The position numbers and the translations under genes are program-made. A model generated the notes under the pieces. That model made no database searches and had not been told where the DNA came from. It was given only the letters and a program-made list of their open reading frames with translations. Below are positions 734 through 64,000 of a stretch of DNA of 64,000 nucleotides, piece by piece. The stretch is from IMG/VR virus record IMGVR_UViG_3300018916_000001, positions 62,001-126,000 of that record; one strand, given 5' to 3'. The first letter of the stretch is position 1. Each line of letters starts with the position of its first letter. This stretch comes from a virus.

Positions 734-1042
734 ATGAAATTTTTAGGTCAAATAGAATTTAGTAAAAAAGTAAAGAAAAGTCAAATGTGGAGTCCTGAAG
801 TAGCTAAGACTAATCTAGCTATTACTACAGGTTTAGGTGGAGGTATTGGGTATCTAGAAGGAATGAAATCAAATTCTAGAAAAGGAATGCTAACTAATAA
901 TCCCGTTAGAGCTATTAGTGGTAAAGGTTGGAAACGTAAACTTGTAGGAGCAACATTAGGTGCAGGATTATCTGCTGGAGTGGGTTATGCAATTTATAAA
1001 AACAACCCGTATAGTCCTATAGGTAAAAAGAAAAATAAGTAA
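734..1042 (+). CDS. small glycine-zipper membrane-like protein A
   Basis: A 102-residue basic protein. It starts MKFLGQIEFS, a motif shared with the next gene. Two Gly-rich hydrophobic stretches follow (ITTGLGGGIGYLEG at about residues 30-43 and GATLGAGLSAGVGYAIY at about 75-91), ending in a Lys-rich tail (GKKKNK). This is glycine-zipper architecture, typical of proteins that pack helices in membranes or form pores. The stop overlaps the next start as TAATG. A virion-carried membrane or DNA-ejection protein is possible. The function is not known. Confidence 0.6.
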   Translation: MKFLGQIEFSKKVKKSQMWSPEVAKTNLAITTGLGGGIGYLEGMKSNSRKGMLTNNPVRAISGKGWKRKLVGATLGAGLSAGVGYAIYKNNPYSPIGKKKNK

Positions 1043-1377
1043 TGATACGATTTCTAGGTCAATACACGGAATTTTCAAACTCTTTTACTAAGAATATGAT
1101 TAGAGAAAATGACAGATCTCTAACAAATGTTAATGGTAAGAAAGTAAATCTAAGTCACTTAGGTCTAATGAGTGCGTTAGGTGCTTATGGTGGATATGAG
1201 TCTGGCAAACTAGGTAATATGTTAAAAACCAAAAAGAATATAGCTGGTAAAGGTCTTAAAGCTAAGGTAATAGGTACTGCTCTAGGAACTGGATTAACTG
1301 GTGGGCTTAGCTATTATTTACAAACTAGAGATAGAGATGGACGTTCAGATAAAGGTAAAAAGAGGATTAATAAATGA
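1042..1377 (+). CDS. small glycine-zipper membrane-like protein B
   Basis: A 111-residue paralogue of the preceding gene: start MIRFLGQYTEFSN, first Gly-rich segment LGLMSALGAYGGYESGKLG, second segment VIGTALGTGLTGGLSYYL, then a basic tail. Order and spacing of the elements match gene A, so this is probably a tandem duplication. The stop TGA overlaps the next ATG. It has no catalytic motif. Confidence 0.6.
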   Translation: MIRFLGQYTEFSNSFTKNMIRENDRSLTNVNGKKVNLSHLGLMSALGAYGGYESGKLGNMLKTKKNIAGKGLKAKVIGTALGTGLTGGLSYYLQTRDRDGRSDKGKKRINK

Positions 1378-7050: not shown

Positions 7051-7410
7051 ATGGCAATTAGTATAAATTTCAATAGACCAAAATTACAAACTACGTTAGA
7101 AGAAGTAGTACCGATTACTGCAACTCTAGTAGAAAACACTACCGATAAACTTTATGTGATAGATGCTAAATACACTGTTACTAAAGACGATGCAAGTACA
7201 GTTACTAAAGTTATTAAACGCTTTAAGATTATCCCTGTAATTGTTGGTACTACCATTCGATTTGATATCACTGAGATTACTTTTCCTCCTACAGCACCGG
7301 ATAATCCTACTGATAATCAAGGAACAATTAGCGCTCCTATTCGTGGAGCTAGCTTAGTAGATTTAGATACATTTCTAACTGCGGTTGGTGATGTAAGAAA
7401 GAATTCCTAA
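7051..7410 (+). CDS. small tail-module protein, unknown
   Basis: A 119-residue mostly beta protein (RFKIIPVIVGTTIRFDITEI) preceded by an A-rich leader without a clear Shine-Dalgarno sequence, as also seen before 4151 and 7441. It is placed directly before the tail tube candidate. No family recognised; it may be a minor tail protein. Confidence 0.45.
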   Translation: MAISINFNRPKLQTTLEEVVPITATLVENTTDKLYVIDAKYTVTKDDASTVTKVIKRFKIIPVIVGTTIRFDITEITFPPTAPDNPTDNQGTISAPIRGASLVDLDTFLTAVGDVRKNS

Positions 7411-7440
7411 TATATAAGAACAAAATATAAATAAAAATAT

Positions 7441-8202
7441 ATGACAATTGAAAAACTTCAGTCAACCTTTATTGGTGTTACTGAACTTAAAATGAGGAGA
7501 TTTAAGGATAACTTAGTTTATCACTTACCTACTCCAATGAATATGGTCGTTGAACCAGGTAAAAATGAACGAGTATTAATGGGTCGAAATAAGCTTGGTC
7601 GTAGAGTTGAAGTGGCCAGCTTTATTGATGCAGAAAACCCAGTATTAAATATCTCTTATGGTATTGTTCAACCAGAATTACTTCAATTTAGATTGGGTAA
7701 TTACTTTGAGAACATGACTAAAGACTTAATGATTCCTACTACTTTCGATTTAGGTCAAGGTGGTACATTCCCAGCAGTTCAAGCTCCTTCGTTAGGTCAC
7801 GCTATTATTGCAGGTGCAGATGCTACAGCTTCTATTAAACGTCCTGATGGAACTTCTCTTGCCCTTGTTGAAGGTACTGATTTTACTATTGGTGCTGGTG
7901 GAATGGTAACTTTTAGTGCAGCTCTTGTTGCAGCGAAAGAGACTGTATCAATGTTAATTCCTTATACTGTAACTGGTCTAGGTATTGGTAGTGAATTAAT
8001 TGGTAGACACGAGGTAGTAGCAACAATTGTGGATAGTGAGGGTTATGTGTGGTTCTTCCATGCTCCTAACGCTAAACCTTCTGCTGCTGGTGGTTCTATT
8101 GATTTTTCCGCTGAATCATTTGATCTTCAACTTAAATTATATAATTCTGGCGGATGTCAACCTTTCACTTTAATTAAGAGTTCAGATAGAGTTTCTTGTT
8201 AA
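7441..8202 (+). CDS. probable major tail tube protein
   Basis: A 253-residue beta-rich protein in the tube position: after the terminator candidate and before the chaperone pair and tape measure. A middle section (about 120-180, AIIAGADATASIKRPDGTSL ... TVSMLIPYTV) looks like an inserted Ig-like or repeat domain. The sequence around it (VLNISYGIVQPELLQFRLGNYF) is compatible with a tube subunit. It is followed by a strong terminator, fitting a highly expressed virion gene. There is no sheath gene next to it. Confidence 0.6.
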   Translation: MTIEKLQSTFIGVTELKMRRFKDNLVYHLPTPMNMVVEPGKNERVLMGRNKLGRRVEVASFIDAENPVLNISYGIVQPELLQFRLGNYFENMTKDLMIPTTFDLGQGGTFPAVQAPSLGHAIIAGADATASIKRPDGTSLALVEGTDFTIGAGGMVTFSAALVAAKETVSMLIPYTVTGLGIGSELIGRHEVVATIVDSEGYVWFFHAPNAKPSAAGGSIDFSAESFDLQLKLYNSGGCQPFTLIKSSDRVSC

Positions 8203-8242
8203 GAATTAAGAACACTATATAATTTCTAATACTATAAAAATT

Positions 8243-8280
8243 AAGAGGTCTACTTATTCGTTAGGTAAACCTCTTTTTAT
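8243..8280. terminator. bidirectional rho-independent terminator
   Basis: AAGAGGT at 8243-8249 pairs with ACCTCTT at 8269-8275, followed by a T run (TTTTTAT). Read on the other strand the hairpin is followed by AATTTTTATAG, so it can stop both the tail operon and the convergent minus-strand genes. Confidence 0.75.
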
Positions 8281-8282
8281 CT

Positions 8283-8465
8283 TTATTTATCTTCTTTTTC
8301 TATGTGTTCTCTTGCTTTGTCTAGAGATTTTTGTATTTTCTCTTTTACTATATTGGTTCCATTTTCTCTATCACTTCTTATATCATCTTTCATTTCTTCT
8401 ATAGCTTCTTTATCTTCTTTACTTAAAAAACCATCAGGATTAGTAGGATGCACCATAGTATACAA
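8283..8465 (-). CDS. small acidic hypothetical protein
   Basis: Up to 60 residues. The longest frame starts at TTG (8463-8465), five bases after a GGAG; an ATG lies at 8456. The product is highly charged and helical (KEDKEAIEEMKDDIRSDRE). It is the distal gene of a two-gene minus-strand island ending at the shared terminator. Function unknown. Confidence 0.5.
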   Translation of the reverse strand: MYTMVHPTNPDGFLSKEDKEAIEEMKDDIRSDRENGTNIVKEKIQKSLDKAREHIEKEDK

Positions 8466-8915
8466 CTAGACTCCTAACTTAAGGCTTGCTATAAGAGAAA
8501 CTACTCCACAAGACCAAGAAAATAGAGCAAAGTCAACTACTTGCATTAAGTCTAGATGAAGAGTATTGAAATCCAAAATAAATAGGAGATATACAATATA
8601 ACCTCCCCAACATCCCTTACAAAATGAACAAGAATTTAATTGATAGACAATATTATATAATCTCTCCCATATAGAGCAGTAATTATTTATCTCTATATCT
8701 TCTTTGTTATTAGGTAAGTAAATATATAAGTTATCTTTCTTTATAGTCTTTTTATTAGAAATTTTATTTAGTTCTACAGCTAACTCTTTCTTCTCTCTTA
8801 GTTTATTTAATAGAAGATTCCAAAAATATCTTGGAACTTTATAATCAAATAAGACTATTCTTAAAGTTACAGCATATATATAAAGTAATGCTATATTAGT
8901 TACATAATCATTCAT
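8466..8915 (-). CDS. membrane protein, DUF1360-like
   Basis: A 149-residue protein with hydrophobic helices at both ends (about 6-22, 106-125 and 128-147) and a central motif SCSFCKGCWGGYIVYLL. That resembles the CPFCLGFW segment of small DUF1360-type membrane proteins. The middle is soluble and Lys/Asn-rich. Its start lies only 14 bp from the divergent chaperone gene, so the two promoters must overlap each other's coding regions. The role is unknown; envelope targeting is likely. Confidence 0.5.
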   Translation of the reverse strand: MNDYVTNIALLYIYAVTLRIVLFDYKVPRYFWNLLLNKLREKKELAVELNKISNKKTIKKDNLYIYLPNNKEDIEINNYCSIWERLYNIVYQLNSCSFCKGCWGGYIVYLLFILDFNTLHLDLMQVVDFALFSWSCGVVSLIASLKLGV

Positions 8916-8929
8916 ACAAATTAAACTCC

Positions 8930-9391
8930 ATGAAGAATTTCAAAGTCAAAGTACAATCATATAATAGCGAAAAAGATACATATGAAGTAGAGAAAGTATA
9001 TATCATACAAAGAGTTGTTAGATCTGAGTTAGATACATTAATTGAATTACATAAACAAATACTAATTCGTTTCTTAGATACTGATGCAAATATGGGAGAG
9101 TTTATTAGAGATAACGAATCTTGGGAATTAATGAGAACGTTAGCTAAAAATCTAAATGTCTTAGGTCAAAAAGATAAAGGATTTGATATAGAAGAAATAG
9201 CTGATGATTTAGAACAACTCTGCCAAATCTTTATTAGTCAAAGTATGAGTGATTCTGGTGAATTAGATTTAGAAGAAGGATGGAAACCTTCATTATTATC
9301 TAGTCTACATAAACTAGATTTTCCTATGTACATGAGAGAAGCAATAAAAAAGTATCAGGAGAAGAGAGAGAGTCAGATAGAAAAAAGTTAA
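8930..9391 (+). CDS. tail assembly chaperone (G-type)
   Basis: A 153-residue acidic, helical protein directly upstream of the tape measure, the conserved place of tail assembly chaperone G. It ends at TAA 9389-9391. A classical A AAA AAG slippery heptamer lies at 9346-9352 in the right reading frame, and the -1 frame is open through to 9702. Like lambda G and GT, two products are expected: this short one and a frameshifted long one. Such chaperones coat the tape measure during tail assembly and are absent from the virion. Confidence 0.8.
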   Translation: MKNFKVKVQSYNSEKDTYEVEKVYIIQRVVRSELDTLIELHKQILIRFLDTDANMGEFIRDNESWELMRTLAKNLNVLGQKDKGFDIEEIADDLEQLCQIFISQSMSDSGELDLEEGWKPSLLSSLHKLDFPMYMREAIKKYQEKRESQIEKS

Positions 9392-9702
9392 TAGCTCCAA
9401 TTCCTAGTAGTGGAGATTCTTCTATCGACCAACTAGCATTCTTACTAGAGATGTATAAAGACTATCCTATAAATCCTGTAACGGACTTATGGGAAAAATT
9501 AGATAATATATCTCTAGATTTACTTATTAACCAAACATTAGAACATCACAAACCTCAAGAAGAACGAGATAAAGAATTAGCACAAGAACTTTATAACAAG
9601 CTTAAAGAAGAGAAAGATTTAACTTCTAATTTACCTATTAATGGAAAAGTTATATCTGCTAAAGACTTTATGATGTTTAAACACGACTCAATACCTGAAT
9701 AA
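8930..9702 (+). CDS. tail assembly chaperone GT, made by -1 frameshift
   Basis: Predicted fusion: codons from 8930 to the slip site at 9346-9352, then the -1 frame (VSGEERESDRKKLIAP...) to the stop at 9700-9702. The T part read alone begins at an ATG at 9451 (83 residues), but the -1 frame is already open from the slip site, as expected for a GT fusion rather than a separate gene. The T part has a helical YKDYPINPVTDLWEKL segment. It ends one base before the tape measure ATG. Confidence 0.75.
9346..9352 (+). promoter_or_regulatory. -1 ribosomal frameshift site A AAA AAG
   Basis: The zero-frame codons are ATA AAA AAG, giving the efficient bacterial slippery heptamer A_AAA_AAG. Slippage gives AAA AAA in the -1 frame, which has no stop for about 115 codons. 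Confidence 0.78.
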
Positions 9703-9703
9703 T

Positions 9704-12700
9704 ATGGATACTGCTAGCAATATTAAATTTAATGTTGAGGGAGATGATAAGTTCTCTCAATTTCTAGAGAAAACTCAAAAATCATTTAAAGAACTTAATG
9801 AGAAATCACTTAGGCTATTTAATACTGGTCTTAGAGAAGGTTCTAGAGGTTTAAAAGATATAACAAAAGAAATTAGAACTAAGTCTAGTGTAGTAGAGAA
9901 GTTAATAGCGGATTATGGTAAAGCTACTAACTCTACTAATACTTGGACAGCTTCTCTTGGTAAATTAGCTAAAACTGCTACATTGCTAGGTGGAGCTATG
10001 ACAGCTTTAAATATTGCTAGCATTGGTGGTGGTATCGCAAGTATTGTAGGTACTGGTATTAATGGTGTAATAGACTCACTTACTAAAGTTAATACTGGTA
10101 TAGATGTTATGGCTGCTAGTGGATTTGACGGGACTCCACTAATGAATTCATTTCAAGAGATAACTGCTGTATTAACCGGAAATCAAGCTGCTATTGATGC
10201 TTTCACTTCTAGATCAACTGCTGCATTTAACTCGTTTGAGCAGAAATTAAATGAAGTTAACATTGTATTTGGCTTATCAAAAGAAAGATTAGCTGAATAT
10301 GGCGATGCTCTACAAAATGGTTTAGAAAAGAATTTAAAGAATAGTGTCTCTTCTCTTACTGCTTTAAATGCTGCGTATCAAGCTGCTTCTGCTGGATTTA
10401 CAGAATTTCAACAAAACCAAGATGTAGTTAATCTAGCAATCAAAGCGAATAAAGCTGCTCCGGGAAGTGACTTATTCCAGATTGGTGGAGCTATTGGTAA
10501 AGGTGCAGGTATCCTAGAAACTAAGGACATTGCAGAATTAGAAGAAGTTACTGCTAAATGGTTAGCTACGGAACAACAAGGTCTAACTACTGTAGGAGAA
10601 ATGACTGAGTATATTAGCGATATGTACTCATCTCTTAAAAACGCAGGTATTGGTACTAAAAATCTAGTTAATGAAACTCAAGGTTTAGTAGTAGCTTTTA
10701 CTAAGTTAGGTGGTAAAGTTACTGATATCTCTACTGAAATGCAAGCGTTCTCTAGAAATACTATTGGTAAAACTCCTGAAGCAACGAAAGCTTTAGAAGG
10801 ATTGGTAGACGCACAAGGAAAAGCTATTACTCTTAATCAAGAATATTTTGGTAAGAAAGGTGTAGTTCAAGGTATTGTAGATTTTGCTGAAGCCGTAGGA
10901 TATAACACTGAGAAGATTAAGGAAGTATATAACGAGACTAATGCTTTCAACTTTGTAATGAAGGTATTAGCTCAAAATGGTAATCTTGCTAAAAAATCTA
11001 TTGAAGATATTAGTAAAGTTACGTCTGAAAATTTAACTGAAGCTTTTGATTCTGCTACTTCTTCATCTCAAGCAAAAATGGAGCAAATTACTAATGCTTA
11101 TGATGAAATAATGATCTCTTTCGGTAAAGTATTCCAAGAAAGAAGTAGAGAAGGTGTTAAATCTATTGAGTGGTATAAAGAAGCTTTAGTAACTTTTAAA
11201 GAGCCATTAGTAGAAATAGCAGGAAGAATGGTAACTTTTTTTGATAATGTAGGAAAATTTACTGGAGTTCTTAGTTCAGTTGCTAAAATGCTCACTGGTA
11301 TAGCAGGAACTATTATTAGCTATAGAGCTTTTGACTTAATTTTTAAAGGACTAACTGATGGATTTAAAGATGTAAAAAAAGAAGGTTCTGTAATTAAAGA
11401 GCTTTATACATCTAATCAAGGTTTATTTGCTATAGGAAAGCAGTTATTAGGATTGGATCAACAGAAACTATTAAGTCAAAATAGAATCAATGAAGCAATT
11501 AAAAAGTCTAGTGAATTAGAACAAGGACTAACTAACTCTATAGGAAAAACTAATAGTGAAAGATTAACTTCTATTGCTACAGTTAAAAATGAGATAGACG
11601 CAATAGTTTCTAGAGATGAGTCTATAATTAAAGGTCAGCAAAAAGTAACTAAAGCTGAAGAACTACTAAATAAGAAAGTAGATAGTAGAAATACAGTACA
11701 ATCCGAAGTAAACTCTACTCAAAAAGGTTTAGCTAATCTAAAAACTCTTAAAGCTGATATTGACAATACTTTTAAAAATAATGTAGAGAATATTGAGCGT
11801 TCCAAAAAACTTAGTGAAATCGCTGCTCAAGAAGCTTTAATTAAACAAGGAAATATTGGAAAACAAGAAAGACAACAATTAAAAGAGCTTAACGCAGAAA
11901 AACTAAGACTTCAAAATACTTATAACACAACTACATTAGACCAATTAGCTTCATTAGAAAAACAAAAAGATATTCTAAGAAATAAAGCTAAGAAATCTGA
12001 TAGAGATTATGCTGCCTTAGACAATATATATAAGAGAGAAGATCAGTTATTAGATAGAGAAAGAACAAAAGATCGTACTCCTCTAACTAAAGAACAAAGA
12101 ACTGAGCTTAACAATACTCGTAAAGATATTGCTACTAAGATACAGCAAGAAGAATTAATTCTCTTAACTCAAAGACAAAAGTTACAAGAAGCTAATAATG
12201 TAGTAGATAAAGAAACTCAAAAACTAAATCAAGTTAGAGCTGACCAACAAGAAAAACTTAATCGAGTTACTAAAGCTACTACTGAATTAGCAGTTCTACA
12301 ACAAGATTTAAATACTAAAAAAACTAATCTAGATAAAATTGATTTAGCTGTTACAGGACAACGTGATAAGCTATACTCAATTCAAAATAATCTAAGAAAA
12401 GAACAAGCTACTTTAGATAAAATTCGTAATAAGGATAGCGCAGAATATCAACAGCAATTAAAAAAAGTTGTATCTTTACAAGAACAAGAAGCTACTCAAC
12501 AAACCGTATTTCAAAAAGCTAGAACTACCCAACTTACTGCACAACAAGCTGTTAACAAAGCAGAAATAGAAAGTAAAACTAAACTTAGACAATTAACTAG
12601 AGAACAAGGTTTAGCGGAAGGCTCGCTTATTGAATTAAGAACTCGTTCAGGTTCAGTAGCTCTTAAAAATACAGCTTTTAATAGAGATTTAGTGAGTTCT

Positions 12701-36626: not shown

Positions 36627-36633
36627 TTAAAAA

Positions 36634-36703
36634 GCGAATAAAGAGGCTCGAACTCTTGACTTCTAGTTGGAAGCTAGAAATATTACCACTATACTATATT
36701 CGC
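36634..36703 (-). tRNA. tRNA-Gly (UCC)
   Basis: A 70-nt cloverleaf read on the minus strand. The acceptor stem GCGAATA/TATTCGC is perfect. The anticodon loop CTTCCAA is closed by TCTAG/CTAGA. The T arm is AAGAG-TTCGAGC-CTCTT and the D loop contains GTGGTAA. No encoded CCA. A short T run follows the 3' end. Confidence 0.92.
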
Positions 36704-36708
36704 ATTAG

Positions 36709-36781
36709 CGCACAGAGCTAAGATTCGCACTTAGGATTCTAGTTTTGGAGACTAGCGTGTTCCTACTACACTATTCTGGCG
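36709..36781 (-). tRNA. tRNA-Trp (CCA)-like, imperfect acceptor stem
   Basis: Minus-strand cloverleaf with D arm GTGT-AGTAGGA-ACAC, anticodon arm CTAGT-CTCCAAA-ACTAG (anticodon CCA) and T arm CTAAG-TGCGAAT-CTTAG. The acceptor arms CGCCAGA and TCTGTGCG pair only with one bulged U, and T-loop position 55 is G rather than U. It may be a decaying or unusually processed tRNA. It lies 5 bp from tRNA-Gly. Confidence 0.6.
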
Positions 36782-45701: not shown

Positions 45702-46133
45702 CTAATTCCTCTCTACTACTCTATTATCTATTTCAGTGTATATCTTAGGTGGAGGTAACAATTCCGGTACATAACCTATAACTCTTAAATCAACATTATA
45801 TTTTTTAGCATTATCGATTGTATGTTTTGTACCTTTACTCGTCCCATTCCAGAAACAAATACAGTGAGTAGCATATTTCAACATTTCAATATTTCTTACC
45901 ATTCCAGCGCTTTTACCTTTTTCCCAATCAGGTATAAATTTCTTTACTTTATAATCTCTACTTTTAGCATAAGCTTCTCCTAACCTATCTGCACCTCTAG
46001 CACCACCAGATACAATTTCTACTTCACATTCTTCTTTTAAAATTTCTTCTAGATATCTATCAACTTCTCTATCTAATAGTTCTGGATTATTAAAATCTCT
46101 AGAACCTGCAATAATCAATTTTATGTCTACCAT
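45702..46133 (-). CDS. SLOG / DUF2493-type nucleotide-binding protein
   Basis: 143 residues. IIAGSRDFNNPELLDREV (about 7-24), EIVSGGARGADRLGEAYAK (about 39-57) and PDWEKGKSAGMVRNIEM (about 67-84), then FWNGTSKGTKHTI (about 94-106). This is the YspA/DUF2493 member of the SLOG superfamily, which binds nucleotides or nucleotide-derived ligands. In phages it clusters with nucleotide-handling genes as here. The exact ligand is unknown. Confidence 0.85.
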   Translation of the reverse strand: MVDIKLIIAGSRDFNNPELLDREVDRYLEEILKEECEVEIVSGGARGADRLGEAYAKSRDYKVKKFIPDWEKGKSAGMVRNIEMLKYATHCICFWNGTSKGTKHTIDNAKKYNVDLRVIGYVPELLPPPKIYTEIDNRVVERN

Positions 46134-46579
46134 TGTTTACCACTTTTATTGTAATTAACTAATTGATAATGAATATTCACTTGTTCTAATAGTTTATCAA
46201 TGTACTTCTCAAAAGAAGCTCTAACTCTTTCTATATTCTGTCCTTTAAAAGTAGGAGCTGCCATATTAGTACCAGGTAAACTACCTATTAATTTTCCAGA
46301 ACTATCTTTACTAACTCTTAATTTAAAGTCTTTATAGGTAAGAATTATACTATTGCTTTTCTCTAACTCTTTCTGTTTCTCATAGTATTCCTTTAAGCCT
46401 TCATCTACTTTCTTTTCAAACACTTCTCTTAATTCTTTTACGGTTACTCCAGATACATCGTAATAAACACCACTAGCTACAGGAAAATATTTATTCTTTC
46501 TAATTCTTCCTATTAAATAATCATCAGAATGAACATAAACATCTAAAATAAAACCTAGATACTCTAATGTATTACTCAT
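46127..46579 (-). CDS. double HicB-like domain protein
   Basis: 150 residues with two copies of a beta-beta-beta-alpha unit: LGFILDVYVHSDDYLIGRI ... VKELREVFEKKVDEGL (about 5-60) and YKDFKLRVSKDSSGKLIGSL ... IERVRASFEKYIDKLL (about 79-130). The layout is that of HicB antitoxin N-terminal domains. It overlaps the SLOG gene by 7 nt. No toxin partner. Confidence 0.55.
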   Translation of the reverse strand: MSNTLEYLGFILDVYVHSDDYLIGRIRKNKYFPVASGVYYDVSGVTVKELREVFEKKVDEGLKEYYEKQKELEKSNSIILTYKDFKLRVSKDSSGKLIGSLPGTNMAAPTFKGQNIERVRASFEKYIDKLLEQVNIHYQLVNYNKSGKQW

Positions 46580-54977: not shown

Positions 54978-55457
54978 CTACTTATACTCTTTTCCCATTA
55001 TCTGATTATATAGATAAGCTGTTTCTTCTAACTCATCTATATATTCCTCAAAATCGACTTGCATATTAGACACTACTTTATGATAAAATTTTCTTGTACC
55101 TTTTGGAGCATTTCTAATTCTTCCTATCATATAACCTTTATCTAATCCATCTTCTACGCCATACTCAAGAACTACTCCTTTATAAGTCAATATATCTTTC
55201 TCTTTCTTAACTTCTTCTAATTGAGTAGTTATAGAAGCTAATTGTTCTTCTAATCTTTTAATACGTTCTTCTTTAGATTCAACATTATCTATAGTATCTC
55301 TAAACTTCTTCAATAAATCTACTCTACTTTTATTTAGTAACACTACATTAGCTTCAGTACATTCTCCTTTATAGAGATTAGTAGAGAAATCATATACTAT
55401 ATCTAAGACATACTCTTTATAAAAATAAGAAGTAGTATATATAGTTCTCTCTAACAT
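54978..55457 (-). CDS. double HicB-like domain protein with coiled coil
   Basis: 159 residues: unit one YKEYVLDIVYDFSTNLYKGEC (about 13-33), a coiled coil (SKEERIKRLEEQLASITTQL), then unit two YKGVVLEYGVEDGLDKGYMIG with a helix QVDFEEYIDELEETAYL. The two HicB-like units are joined by the coiled coil, an arrangement also found in 46127-46579. It is next to the Thg1-like gene. Confidence 0.55.
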   Translation of the reverse strand: MLERTIYTTSYFYKEYVLDIVYDFSTNLYKGECTEANVVLLNKSRVDLLKKFRDTIDNVESKEERIKRLEEQLASITTQLEEVKKEKDILTYKGVVLEYGVEDGLDKGYMIGRIRNAPKGTRKFYHKVVSNMQVDFEEYIDELEETAYLYNQIMGKEYK

Positions 55458-58983: not shown

Positions 58984-59535
58984 CTAAGAGTTTGTCTCTA
59001 ATTTTTTTAGTTCATCTAATAGTTCTCTGACTAAATCAGGATATTTACCATGGGTACCAATAGGATGACTTCCATAAATTTGATAGAATCTCTTTACAAA
59101 TTTCTCTAAACTTTTCTCTTTAGTGAATATATCTGCTAACTTATCTAACTTTTGCTCTATTCTTTCTAGACTATTAGGTATTAGTTGCTTCTTCTCTTCA
59201 GAAATTTTCCAATTGATATATTTCTTAAATTTAGTAATGTTAGCTTCTTCGTCTTCTCCATAAGTTTTGTAATCTAATTCTTTGCAATAACCACCTTTCC
59301 TCTTTTGTCCGTAATTGTCCTCTATTAATCCTAGTTTTAAGAGATAACCTTTATACTCAAAAGACTTTATAAGATTATCTACCTCCCATCTAAACCTACT
59401 AACTAATTGATAAAGACTACAACCTTTCCATGCACCATTTATAAAAGAAAGAGTAGATTCATCACATTTAGTTTTAAAACCGTTATATTCTTCCTCAATC
59501 TCTAAAATGTAACCTTTATACTCTAGTTTCATCAT
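58984..59535 (-). CDS. double HicB-like domain protein
   Basis: 183 residues. Unit one: LEYKGYILEIEEEYNGFKTKC ... SLYQLVSRFRWEVDNLI (about 3-57). Unit two: FEYKGYLLKLGLIEDNYGQ ... ITKFKKYINWKI (about 59-112). A helical tail follows. It starts at ATGATG overlapping the stop of the upstream 50-residue gene. Among the clearest HicB-like members. Confidence 0.6.
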   Translation of the reverse strand: MMKLEYKGYILEIEEEYNGFKTKCDESTLSFINGAWKGCSLYQLVSRFRWEVDNLIKSFEYKGYLLKLGLIEDNYGQKRKGGYCKELDYKTYGEDEEANITKFKKYINWKISEEKKQLIPNSLERIEQKLDKLADIFTKEKSLEKFVKRFYQIYGSHPIGTHGKYPDLVRELLDELKKLETNS

Positions 59536-59687
59536 TACTTTCTCCTTAAATACTGGTCATAAAACACTACTGAATCGTTTTTATCATTTAGTATTCCAAC
59601 TTCTATAAATTGGTCACTATTATCTTGAAGCTTGAATACTTTCTTAGTTCTTTTAATACTACTAGAATCAGCTAAGTTAATTTCCAT
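59535..59687 (-). CDS. 50-residue beta protein
   Basis: ATG 59685-59687, TAA 59535-59537. MEINLADSSSIKRTKKVFKL, then FIEVGILNDKNDSVVFYDQY. It is similar to the end of 58394-58912 and is coupled to the next gene by TAATG. Function unknown. Confidence 0.5.
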   Translation of the reverse strand: MEINLADSSSIKRTKKVFKLQDNSDQFIEVGILNDKNDSVVFYDQYLRRK

Positions 59688-59692
59688 TGTAT

Positions 59693-59908
59693 TTAATCTC
59701 TAGTAACTATACGAATTGTCATTTCTTCTCTTTTCTCTAGCTCTGATGCCGTAGAGATAAAACTACCAATTAGAGTGTTAAAATCTACTTTCCAACAATC
59801 TTCACAAAAAGAAAGAATATCAAGACAAGAAGTTTTATAGCAATCTTTTTCTTCCTCTATACTTTCTACGGTTAAGATATATCCATTACATTTACATTCA
59901 AACTTCAT
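59693..59908 (-). CDS. single HicB-like domain protein
   Basis: 71 residues: NGYILTVESIEEEKDCYKTSC (about 8-28), LSFCEDCWKVDFNTLIGSFI (about 32-51), helix TASELEKR. Similar to unit one of 58984-59535 (both have a LSF-x-x-x-x-WK phrase). Contains six Cys, unusual for the family. Confidence 0.55.
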   Translation of the reverse strand: MKFECKCNGYILTVESIEEEKDCYKTSCLDILSFCEDCWKVDFNTLIGSFISTASELEKREEMTIRIVTRD

Positions 59909-59937
59909 TTAAACCTCCAGCTAATTTGTAAGGATAT

Positions 59938-60234
59938 TCACCAATTATGTAACTTAGCCCAATCTCTTAACTTAACATTGTCTTCTACTAATTGATTGTG
60001 AAATTTATAGTGTATCTCTTCATCAATTCTTCTTTCTATTTGTTCTATAAGATGAGTGAGAGAATCTGAATCATACCAACCATTAAGACCTAGAATTTCA
60101 CCTGATAAACATTCTCGTTCTGCGTCTAGATATATCTCGTATTTGTAATCTCGATATTCTTTAGTTAAGACAGGATTAAAGTCACCTTCTAGTTCATTTA
60201 TTTTTATTTTCTTTACAATATTCAGGAGGGACAA
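59938..60234 (-). CDS. HicB-like domain protein
   Basis: 98 residues. YRDYKYEIYLDAERECLSGEI, then LGLNGWYDSDSLTHLIEQIE and RRIDEEI follow the strand-strand-strand-helix order. The N-terminal ~20 residues overlap the next upstream gene by 41 nt, so the start may be further in. No HicA-like partner nearby. Confidence 0.5.
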   Translation of the reverse strand: MSLLNIVKKIKINELEGDFNPVLTKEYRDYKYEIYLDAERECLSGEILGLNGWYDSDSLTHLIEQIERRIDEEIHYKFHNQLVEDNVKLRDWAKLHNW

Positions 60235-60475
60235 GTTCTTCTAGAAAGTAATCGTACTTATCTAGTTCAATCTTGACTTTAATAAACTGAGATAGATAAT
60301 CTACTTGTTCTTGATTTTCAAGATAACAACCATTAAAATATCTTTCCCGATTAAGAAGTCCTAAAGGCTCTAACTCATCTTCATTTAGTCTTTCTGTTAA
60401 ATATTCCTTACCTATTTGTGTTTCAGTTTCTTTATCTACCCAAAACAAAGCTGCTAACATAAAATTAGATTTCAT
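60194..60475 (-). CDS. small hypothetical protein, family of 60646
   Basis: 93 residues. LEPLGLLNRERYFNGCYLENQEQVDYLSQFIKVKIELDKYDYFLEEL parallels LERLGLLRFCSNKVETQEQIDYLTQLVKLNIDVTKYDYFIEVE in the gene at 60646, so these are duplicated genes separated by one gene. Function unknown. Confidence 0.55.
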   Translation of the reverse strand: MKSNFMLAALFWVDKETETQIGKEYLTERLNEDELEPLGLLNRERYFNGCYLENQEQVDYLSQFIKVKIELDKYDYFLEELVPPEYCKENKNK

Positions 60476-60662
60476 TGTCTCCTCCTGACAAATTCAAATC
60501 GTCTAATCTAATAAACTCTGAGTTTTCTTCTTTAGCTACTTGTACAGATATCTCAAATGCTTTAGTATCAGAGAAACCTAACTCATCCAATGCAAATTCG
60601 TAAGAGTCTAAATCGAATTGAGTTAAATTAAGTGGAATGTCTGAGTTAGTCATTATCTTCAA
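60465..60662 (-). CDS. small acidic hypothetical protein
   Basis: 65 residues, acidic (FDLDSYEFALDELGFSDTKA). It overlaps both duplicated neighbours by 11-17 nt. No motif. Confidence 0.45.
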   Translation of the reverse strand: MKIMTNSDIPLNLTQFDLDSYEFALDELGFSDTKAFEISVQVAKEENSEFIRLDDLNLSGGDNEI

Positions 60663-60885
60663 CCTCTATGAAATAATCGTACTTAGTTACGTCAATATTA
60701 AGTTTTACTAATTGAGTAAGATAATCTATTTGCTCTTGAGTTTCTACTTTATTACTACAAAATCTAAGTAACCCTAATCTCTCTAGTTCTGTTTCATCTT
60801 GTACATTTAGACTGACTTTTCCTATAGAAGCTTCACCGTTATAACCGTTTTCCCACTTTGTCCACCAACTAAGAATCTTATCCAT
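60646..60885 (-). CDS. small hypothetical protein, paralogue of 60194
   Basis: 79 residues starting MDKILSWWTKWENGYNGEAS. The C-terminal 45 residues match the gene at 60194 (ETQEQIDYLTQLVKL / ENQEQVDYLSQFIKV). No known family. Confidence 0.55.
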   Translation of the reverse strand: MDKILSWWTKWENGYNGEASIGKVSLNVQDETELERLGLLRFCSNKVETQEQIDYLTQLVKLNIDVTKYDYFIEVEDND

Positions 60886-61340: not shown

Positions 61341-61544
61341 TTAAACTTTAAATGTGATATCTACACTAACCATCTCAGTAATAAAGTTAGCTAGACAAGC
61401 TCCTTTACTACCGTACCAATTCTTTGATTCTATCCATATATCATCTTTAAAGTATCTCCATTTATAAGCATCATATCCACAGCTATCTACGTGAACAAGA
61501 ATCTCAAATACTTTATACGTCACTATTTCTTCTTTTGCTTCCAT
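61341..61544 (-). CDS. 67-residue hypothetical protein
   Basis: ATG 61542-61544 overlaps the reductase stop (TAATG) and follows GGAG; an ATG at 61568 has no such site. The product MEAKEEIVTYKVFEILVHVD ... CLANFITEMV is alpha/beta and coupled to the reductase. Function unknown. Confidence 0.5.
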   Translation of the reverse strand: MEAKEEIVTYKVFEILVHVDSCGYDAYKWRYFKDDIWIESKNWYGSKGACLANFITEMVSVDITFKV

Positions 61545-62617
61545 TATTTTTTCTCCGGTAATAGACATTTATCTGAGTCACATCCAGCATTTCCAGAATC
61601 AGCTACAAAATCCAACCCTTTAGAATATTTATTTACTAAGGACACAAAATCAGTAGAGACTTGGCGATTTTTTACATCTTCCATTAACTCTAAATATTTA
61701 GCTTCTGTAATAGGTTCAAAAGGAAGTCTAGGAAACGTCTCTTTAGCTTCAAATTTAGCTAATAACGCTGCTGAGATATAACCTTCGTCATTCTGAATTA
61801 AATCATGAATAGCAGTTCCTAATGGTTCAATTTCATTTTCTGAAAGTTCGATAGTAGCAGATGAGGAGTGAGTAGTATAGAAGTTATGAACTTGCATATA
61901 AAAGTCCAATTGAGCTAATGCACTACAGTCTTTAGGGTTAAAATCTGCCTCATCACCTATTTTTGCCCAATTAACTTCTACTGGAATTTCTACTAACCAT
62001 TCTGTAACTCTTGGGTCATTAGGATCGTTTAGTAAATTACCTTCTTCATCTTTACAATCTTGAGAGGGAATAATGTTGTAACCGTAATCTCGACAAGCAA
62101 GTGCCACTGGGTCATTTACTCTATACGTAATTCGTCGGATATAACGAGTTGCTTTAGGAGGATGCCAACCAGCACTAGCTCCAGTTAGAAGAGATTTACT
62201 TCCACTAGGAGCAATAGCAGTATATCTATTAGGAACTCTTATTCCATTCCTTTCACAGAATTCTACTACTGTATCTCTAACTACATTTTTCCATCTAGTT
62301 AAATATTCTCTTTCTGTCTCTAAAAAATAAGAAGCTTTTTCGTAATCTCTACTTCTACCAGTTTTCCACCATCTTAACCAGTCAGCTCCAAATAGATTGA
62401 CGAAGAAGTCGAATAATCCAGTAATACAAACACCAATAATAGGGTCAACTTCCCTAGAATATCTAAGTTCTTCAATATCAAATTCGTGTTGAAGTAATGG
62501 TAGAGCTGCTAATGTAGATGCTTTGAATGCTTCTTCTTGCTGTTTAATATCTAATGGGTCTAGTAAATTAGCATGAACGTCGGCTAAATTACATAAAAAC
62601 GTGTTACCAATAATTTC
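61544..62617 (-). CDS. nrdJ: class II ribonucleotide reductase, exon 2 (C-terminal part)
   Basis: The exon starts EIIGNTFLCNLADVHANLL directly after the intron. DPIIGVCITGLFDFFVN, WLRWWKTGRSRDYEKAS, VVEFCERNGIRVPNRYT and APSGSKSLLTGASAGWHPPK ... RRITYRVNDPVALACRDYG match adenosylcobalamin-dependent (NrdJ) reductases, including the APSGS phosphate-binding loop. It ends CDSDKCLLPEKK, with the C-terminal Cys pair expected of a self-reducing tail. It reduces ribonucleotides to deoxyribonucleotides using B12. Expression requires intron and intein removal. Confidence 0.9.
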   Translation of the reverse strand, partial: EIIGNTFLCNLADVHANLLDPLDIKQQEEAFKASTLAALPLLQHEFDIEELRYSREVDPIIGVCITGLFDFFVNLFGADWLRWWKTGRSRDYEKASYFLETEREYLTRWKNVVRDTVVEFCERNGIRVPNRYTAIAPSGSKSLLTGASAGWHPPKATRYIRRITYRVNDPVALACRDYGYNIIPSQDCKDEEGNLLNDPNDPRVTEWLVEIPVEVNWAKIGDEADFNPKDCSALAQLDFYMQVHNFYTTHSSSATIELSENEIEPLGTAIHDLIQNDEGYISAALLAKFEAKETFPRLPFEPITEAKYLELMEDVKNRQVSTDFVSLVNKYSKGLDFVADSGNAGCDSDKCLLPEKK

Positions 62618-63513
62618 CAGTTTTGTTATCCTAGTGGCTTTTTATCCTCTAGTTCTATAGATTCTCTATTCTCTATAGCTCGGCGTACCTTTTCATCTTT
62701 TTACGGATGCCCTGCACTCTTGGAGCTACACCAAAAAAGTATAGGAGAAAATTTTCTCGGATTATATTTTTTGTAAGTTATGTCTTTTAACTGCCCTTCT
62801 AATAGTATCTTCGTGAACTCCAAGAAGATTTGCAATTGCTTTCTGTGATAGTTGCTGAGCAATATAAAGTTCCAAAAGAATATCTTTGGTAATTTTACTG
62901 CTTCTATCTGGTAGATTATGTTGTTTTGGTCTAGTAATACCATACCTACTAACAACTTTTTGAATTTGGTATCTAGAAACTTTATATAAGTGGGCTAGAT
63001 GTCTAGTGGAGTGACCTTTAAGATACAAATCAACAACGTTAACAATTTCACTTTCAGGTAATTCTAGAGGTTTTCTCCTCCATTTTTGACCACCTGGACA
63101 TAAATTGTAACCTTTTGCGATGGAGTCGTATAATTGTATATAAAACTCCTCACGCTGATTTAGTTGGTCTAGAGATATAGACTCTTCTAGCACCTCGAAA
63201 TAAAATTTATCTTTACCGTATTTAGCAATTGCTCTACTTATTATTTGGGAGCGATTAGTTTTTAGCAGCTTTAGATGCTGCTTAAATCTTTTTACAACAG
63301 GCTGTATCGTCTGACCAATGTAGACTTTACTATTTATTGTATTTCTAATAATGTAGATACTACCTGTTTCAGTTTCCATAACATAATTTACAAAAGTTCA
63401 CCCTCTACGCTCTACGGTGTCAAAAGCATATTACCTCTTCTGATTACCACGGGATTAGCAATTCACAGCCTTCCCCGTTTTTGCAAGGTTTTTTAATTGA
63501 GGCAATATTATTT
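62618..63513 (-). other. group I intron in nrdJ
   Basis: 896 nt. Removal joins TGT GGT to GAA ATT and restores the conserved NPCGEI frame. The 5' exon ends in U and the intron ends in G, as in group I introns. GCCTCA (63498-63503) can pair with the exon end UGUGGU, including the U-G pair at the splice site. ACGGGGAA and TAATCCCGTGG (63446-63478) resemble the P and Q core elements of T4 td-type introns. Candidate 3' core lies near 62680-62735. The non-coding ends flank a GIY-YIG gene. Confidence 0.85.
62762..63379 (-). CDS. GIY-YIG homing endonuclease inside the intron
   Basis: 205 residues. GSIYIIRNTINSKVYIGQT (about 6-24) is the GIY-YIG motif, with RFKQHL (about 31-36) holding the catalytic Arg/His region, and EEFYIQLYDSIAKGYNLCPGG (about 77-97) with the Glu and Asn. 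The C-terminus has two helix-turn-helix-like DNA-binding segments (HSTRHLAHLYKVSRYQIQKV and SQKAIANLLGVHEDTIRRAV). It spreads the intron by cutting intronless nrdJ alleles. It may be translated from the precursor. Confidence 0.9.
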   Translation of the reverse strand: METETGSIYIIRNTINSKVYIGQTIQPVVKRFKQHLKLLKTNRSQIISRAIAKYGKDKFYFEVLEESISLDQLNQREEFYIQLYDSIAKGYNLCPGGQKWRRKPLELPESEIVNVVDLYLKGHSTRHLAHLYKVSRYQIQKVVSRYGITRPKQHNLPDRSSKITKDILLELYIAQQLSQKAIANLLGVHEDTIRRAVKRHNLQKI

Positions 63514-64000
63514 ACCACAATTGTGCGTAACTACTCCTTCTACTACTCCCCAATTAGTAAGCGGTTCAGTAAAATCATAAACTTTAGCTACTCCTGAAGG
63601 TTTTACAGATATAACAAATGGATTTTCTTTTTCTTTATCAAAAGATTGTAGAGTCTCCATTAATAAAAACTCAGCAGCTACTTCTCTATCATCTGATGTT
63701 AGAAAAATATGGTCGAGTGTACAATAAATCTTCTTATCGTTAGAAAGAGTAAGTTCTACTGTTTCTTTTACCCCTGTTTGCCAAACCTTAGATTCACTAA
63801 TATCTCCATTAGGATTAATGATATTAAACGTCTTTCCTTCTAACTCCTCTAGTGTTTTATAACCTTCTGTAGTGAGCAAGTTCGCATCTCCTCGGAGGCT
63901 AGGATTTAAACCGTAACGACGAATCCTATGTTCTAGCTCTCTACCATCCATCTCAGGAGATAACTCTTTTAAGTAATTAGCTCCTTTCCTAATAGAAGTT
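63514..64000 (-). CDS. nrdJ: class II ribonucleotide reductase, exon 1 with intein (partial, runs off the window)
   Basis: From the right edge the frame reads TSIRKGANYLKELSPEMDGRE, then LEHRIRRYGLNP: typical of the region just before the active-site loop of NrdJ. A mini-intein follows, then CG, the last two codons of the exon. After both splicing events the protein reads RRYGLNP-CG-EIIGN, in which Cys is the thiyl-radical residue. The N-terminal part of the gene is outside the window. Confidence 0.88.
63520..63900 (-). other. mini-intein in nrdJ (127 residues)
   Basis: Starts with Ser1 in SLRGDANLLTTEGYKTLEEL (block A), contains TLSNDKKIYCTLDHIFLTSD with the TxxH of block B (CTLDH), and ends KVYDFTEPLTNWGVVEGVVT-HN (blocks F and G), followed by +1 Cys. 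No LAGLIDADG or HNH domain fits in 127 residues, so it is a minimal splicing unit. It sits exactly before the catalytic Cys of NPCGE, a known intein site in reductases. Confidence 0.88.

Follow-up and report, generated by a model that had tools for sequence, protein, structure and literature searches.

Analysis of a phage genome of 151 kb revealed that nrdJ, the gene for B12-dependent ribonucleotide reductase, is interrupted twice within its active-site codons. A mini-intein is inserted at NP|C and a group I intron with a GIY-YIG endonuclease at CG|E, so that only TGT GGT (six nucleotides) lies between them. The guide sequence of the intron base-pairs with the last codon of the intein. The anatomy, splice sites and core structure are supported by sequence comparison, whereas splicing activity, the order of insertion, adaptation of the guide and mobility by the GIY-YIG enzyme are inferred. 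Overall we put the probability of this reading at about 0.85. The window analyzed was a stretch of 64,000 nucleotides, positions 62001-126000 of a virus record of 151,199 bases (IMGVR_UViG_3300018916_000001). The gene is cut by the window edge and its missing part was taken from the same record. Positions of the features are listed in the table.

Features of the nrdJ locus (positions are those of the window)
Feature	Position	Strand	Description
End of nrdJ N-extein	63901..64000	-	..RIRRYGLNP; the remaining ~400 codons lie beyond the window (record positions 125901-127193)
Mini-intein	63520..63900	-	127 aa (SLRGDANLL...VEGVVTHN) at NP|C; Ser1, TLDH block B (T61LDH64), C-terminal HN127, +1 Cys; no endonuclease domain
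TGT GGT	63514..63519	-	Cys432 (radical cysteine, intein +1 nucleophile) and Gly433; 5' exon of the intron, paired in P1
Group I intron	62618..63513	-	896 nt; starts AAATAATATT, ends AAAACTG with terminal G
Internal guide sequence	63495..63503	-	GCCUCAAUU; pairs with exon -1..-9 (8 of 9, U.U at -4), reaching into the AAT codon of the intein (63520-63522)
P3 5' strand	63483..63488	-	CCUUGC; partner GCAGGG at 62710-62715
P7 5' strand	63406..63412	-	G-(A bulge)-GCGUA; partner UACGCC at 62682-62687; guanosine-binding site
GIY-YIG homing endonuclease ORF	62762..63379	-	205 aa, between P7 5' and P3 3' strands
Exon 2 / C-extein of nrdJ	61544..62617	-	GAAATTATTGG from 62617; EIIGN.. to the stop; starts with Glu434 (= Glu410 of RTPR)

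Virtual splicing joined an N-extein of 431 codons to exon 2 and gave a protein of 790 aa, which scored 544.6 bits against TIGR02505 RTPR (cut-off 340). The protein was aligned to the Lactobacillus leichmannii enzyme (PDB 1L1L), with C432-G-E434 on C408-G-E410, the thiyl-radical cysteine and the active-site glutamate of RTPR. The intein therefore lies before the cysteine, and the intron between the neighbour of that cysteine and the glutamate. The intron also places a stop two codons after its 5' splice site (CGK*), from which it follows that the enzyme depends on both splicing steps. Most likely the intron leaves the mRNA first by two transesterifications, joining GGT to GAA, and the translated intein then excises itself using Ser1, the TxxH block, the terminal Asn and Cys432, joining NP to CGE. 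The first-pass annotation had suggested that such dependence might be regulated. Inteins and introns have been proposed as environmental sensors (cited in PMC6293099), and the two catalytic residues meet only after both steps. However, no conserved regulatory feature was found and most relatives have one or no element, which is also what neutral selfish elements would look like. A regulatory device remains a guess and appears very unlikely.

The intein scored 29.4 bits with TIGR01445 (cut-off 24.5) and 30.1 bits with Pfam Intein_splicing (PF14890), the latter being below its cut-off of 35.8. When it was modelled with eight same-site mini-inteins, AlphaFold predicted a HINT fold with a pLDDT of 95.8, and the best matches among solved structures were inteins, including the NrdJ-1 split intein. 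Relatives at the same NP|C point were found in Nodularia phages and in many IMG/VR contigs, giving 35 rows and 29 different sequences in all, both mini and with a LAGLIDADG-type domain. All except two, the window and the contig designated L117 (IMGVR 3300039008_000243), run straight into the reductase, although one contig ended too early. The L117 intein is 54% identical to that of the window. A scan of bacterial genomes with the intein gave five weak hits. Ser1 is unique among the same-site inteins collected, the others having Cys. This could suggest that nrdJ is decaying and that one or both elements no longer splice; indeed, a related reductase with the intron (L178/L184) has an in-frame stop in its upstream exon. 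Against this, both exteins are open over 790 codons with all RTPR residues, the intein model is confident and the guide still fits its exon after arrival of the intein. We consider decay very unlikely.

The intron was not found by the Rfam group I model RF00028, even at an E value of 10. The same was true for L117 and relatives, although RF00028 did detect the bnrdE intron of SPbeta at 92 bits. A distant blastn search with the two intron ends identified compact relatives in other phages. Five introns were aligned with a manually written structure: 97.5% of cells were paired, 29 of 56 pairs showed changes on both sides, none of 500 shuffles was as good, and pairing fell to 30-46% when the partners were slid. 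P3, P4, P5, P6, P7, P7.1, P8, P9 and P9.2 are supported. In P3 100% of cells are paired and four of six pairs have double-sided changes. P7 is X-(bulge)-GCGUA/UACGC-Y with an invariant G-C and an outer pair X-Y that is G-C, C-G or A-U; this is the guanosine site, with P3/P7 forming the usual pseudoknot. A covariance model of the nested part found introns from which it was not built: Leptolyngbya phage Lbo-JY46 DNA polymerase (199 bits), MT835492 (187), Bacillus phage PJN02 helicase (186), phiCDIF1296T (167) and CB457P1 (126). In this genome it found only the nrdJ intron, as two halves around the ORF (102 and 75 bits), but the window core was in the training set. The first-pass annotation had taken failure of a covariance model as evidence against the intron; this outcome was obtained with the Rfam model and not with the model built from related introns. 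The intron ORF scored 82.2 bits with TIGR01453, group I intron endonuclease (cut-off 56), and 44.5 bits with Pfam GIY-YIG (PF01541); SIY..YIG and the conserved R, E and N were seen in its sequence.

To look for further introns at this site we searched viral sequences for TGTGGT followed by the guide TTGCCTCA. Of 34 stretches found, 14 loci were confirmed by the covariance model, all at NPCG|E codons. These represent nine intein-less lineages plus L163, which is the L117 contig, and they sit in NrdJ-type and in NPCGEQPL-type reductases. L199 and L179 scored low (62 and 34 bits), without confirmation of their 3' ends. The junction pattern GATAACA..GGARAT gave 15 hits, of which only L163 was real by the model, and the pattern with TGC instead of TGT gave 65 hits, none of them an intron. 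Searches of viral contigs with the C-extein or the GIY-YIG ORF alone gave nothing. An empty site was found in 85 cyanophage-type alleles, and Microcoleus phage My-WqHQDG has an intein one codon later, at NPC|C.

The search pattern fixed TGTGGT and most of the guide, but left guide bases 7 and 8 and the upstream exon free. Guide base 7 pairs with exon base -7 in 10 of 10 introns with four different base pairs (permutation 3e-5). P10, in which exon 2 pairs with the bases before the guide, is formed at +4 in 9 of 10 introns (0.0036), and the joint test reached 0 of 100,000. The splice sites are therefore fixed by covariation, although P10 of the window has one mismatch (8 of 9 pairs).

Both elements together occur in three unrelated phages, that of the window being the first. 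In L117 an intein of 324 aa with a LAGLIDADG_3 domain is followed by TGTGGT, an intron of 249 nt without ORF, and EIIG; its intron also introduces a stop (CGI*), and a further intein lies downstream. In the third phage, represented by three contigs (L280/L284/L288), the N-extein ends in NP followed by a 100-aa intein N-half and a stop, then a free-standing endonuclease of 332 aa, and then a 35-aa intein C-half ending HN, CG, an intron of 239 nt without ORF, and EQFLWP. The reductases of the window and L117 are not sisters and that of the third phage is of a different type, so the pair probably arose more than once. Common inheritance of the pair by the window and L117 was rejected for the reductase and is unresolved for the inteins, and their intron cores are no closer to each other than to others. 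As the window comes from a metagenome-derived record, an assembly artefact joining two alleles was considered. It is highly improbable, given the same arrangement in two other phages and the presence of the same intron at the same site in the sister phage described below. Overall, the first-pass annotation was supported in proposing two unrelated elements in the NPCGE codons, an endonuclease in the intron but none in the intein, and repeated invasion of this site. Two corrections are needed: the intron is not recognised by the Rfam group I model, and the pair is not unique to this genome.

P1 reaches into the intein. In intein-less alleles exon bases -9 to -7 are CCN (Pro), and with an intein they are AAY (Asn, the last intein residue). 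At -8, eight of nine intein-less introns pair C with guide G; the window and the split-intein phage pair A with T(U), while L117 keeps G opposite A. Adaptation thus holds in two of three cases, and the Fisher value for guide base 8 = T is 0.045 on 3 against 9 lineages, which is suggestive only. The closest comparison is L196, a phage of 146.5 kb whose NrdJ is sister to that of the window (64% aa identity, node 100/100). Its intron core is 91% identical, while exon 2 DNA is 68% identical. L196 has no intein, a different ORF in another place, and the guide GCCTCAAGT against GCCTCAATT in the window. The single difference in the guide is base 8, which is G in L196, pairing with Pro CCT, and T in the window, pairing with Asn AAT. 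The window guide pairs at most 6 of 9 with the 85 empty sites. The L117 guide fits an empty CCC site better than its own (-9.8 against -7.1 kcal/mol), as expected if its intron also preceded its intein and has not adapted. Most likely the intron, a member of a site-specific lineage of viral reductase introns, was present before the intein and its guide then changed by one base, but the intein tree is unresolved and this order rests on one sister phage.

Because the insertion points are 6 bp apart, a break repaired from either element should usually convert both. A composite mobile unit, in which one homing endonuclease spreads both elements by co-conversion, is therefore possible, although we regard it as tentative. 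In the window the intron enzyme would carry the endonuclease-less intein along, and in each of the three phages a different part carries the endonuclease: the intron in the window, the intein in L117, and a free-standing ORF between the intein halves in the third. This free-standing enzyme is homologous (E 6e-18) to the endonuclease inside the CG|E intron of another locus, L191, which in turn matches the ORF in the L196 intron (9e-19), so that one endonuclease lineage is associated with both insertion points. The greater identity of the intron cores of the window and L196 than of their exon 2 also points to recent intron transfer. On the other hand, two neighbouring inteins with active endonucleases interfered with each other's homing in haloarchaea (PMC10643990), and an intein 6 bp upstream changes the target of an intron endonuclease. 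In addition, the second LAGLIDADG motif of the L117-type inteins ends in ANG rather than D/E, so its activity is doubtful, and trees do not show the two elements travelling together. A more speculative possibility, not excluded but unlikely, is that intein and intron form a co-evolving pair, with the guide retuned to the last intein codon and one endonuclease lineage moving either or both elements.

Attraction of both kinds of element to conserved sites is an established idea (PMC2814812), and an intron and an intein in one phage reductase gene are known from bnrdE of Bacillus phage SPbeta (PMC3653736). There the intein, which has an endonuclease, also sits before the homologous radical Cys (SNL|CSE), but the enzyme is of class Ib and the intron lies far upstream, after YADQMG. 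The inteins of Nodularia phages vB_NpeS-2AV2, kac65 and kac68 are homologous to that of the window (41% identical) and share its NP|C insertion point, but they have 336 aa with an endonuclease domain, Cys1 and no intron, and lie in a more distant NrdJ. Split inteins of fractured genes with a free-standing endonuclease (Dassa et al. 2009, cited in PMC3653736; NrdJ-1) also occupy NrdJ active-site codons, and L288 shows that arrangement at NP|C; no group I intron six bases away is mentioned in the part of the literature that could be consulted. The intron resembles T4 td-type phage introns with a GIY-YIG endonuclease in P1 with U.G, P3-P9, the terminal G, a stop codon just inside the intron and the GIY-YIG ORF. 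It differs in the location of the ORF between P7 and P3, the absence of P2, the lack of detection by RF00028, and a family shared with crAss-like, Staphylococcus, Bacillus and Leptolyngbya phages. A group I intron is also known in a reductase gene of Nostoc punctiforme (Meng et al. 2007, described in PMC12702839). In the papers examined, which did not cover all key work, we found no description of an intein and an intron in one motif.

In contrast to SPbeta, the two elements described here share one active-site loop. The P1 helix of the RNA element contains the last codon of the protein element, so a change in one element is visible in the guide sequence of the other. Three unrelated phages with the pair, nine lineages with the intron alone and many with the intein alone allow the order of invasion and the adaptation to be read from sequence.

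In L117, a viral contig (IMGVR 3300039008_000243) that carries both the intein and the intron, a second intein of 371 aa is present in the same nrdJ at QPEG|..|TKSLL, with Thr at +1 and a proper GLIDTDG motif. The second LAGLIDADG motif of the NP|C inteins (the L108-L151 intein family) ends almost always in ANG instead of D/E-G. This was observed across diverse phages that keep the whole domain, and its activity is unclear. The nrdJ of Microcoleus phage My-WqHQDG, which is annotated as a hypothetical protein, carries a mini-intein at NPC|C, one codon after the insertion point in the window. The NrdJ of a 195 kb phage (L140) has two inteins, at VRR|C and NP|C, and inteins of about 300 aa were found in cyanophage NrdJ (loci L099 and L100) at YN|C, the first redox cysteine.

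Coordinates of additional features in the phage under study and in other viral loci
Locus	Coordinates	Strand	Feature
L288 (also L284, L280)	7326-9811		fractured reductase gene
L117	2949-5108		second intein in nrdJ
L099	4001-5300		intein at YN|C
L100	4001-5300		intein at YN|C
L004	2938-5823		Microcoleus phage My-WqHQDG nrdJ with mini-intein
L140	1-10201		NrdJ with two inteins
L178 / L184	1-1042 (L178)		reductase with CG|E intron and in-frame stop
window	58984-60885; 46127-46579; 54978-55457	minus	runs of small ORFs
window	36633-36780	minus	two tandem tRNA genes
G000:C1 (same phage genome, outside the window)	814-1050		second GIY-YIG protein

In the window itself, runs of small ORFs (65-180 aa) with similar starts (..YKGYILEIEEE.., ..QEQVDYLSQ..) look like expanded paralogous families. 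Of the two tandem tRNA genes, the second is divergent (44.9 bits). A second GIY-YIG protein (32 bits) is encoded elsewhere in the same phage genome.

The reductase of L178/L184, which has the CG|E intron, contains an in-frame stop in its upstream exon (NNKD*NL), and this could be explained either by a decaying gene or by recoding. In L288 (also L284 and L280, contigs of one phage) the reductase gene is fractured: a split intein is located at NP|C with a free-standing endonuclease between the halves, and a group I intron follows 6 nt after the intein C-half. This gene therefore needs both trans protein splicing and RNA splicing.
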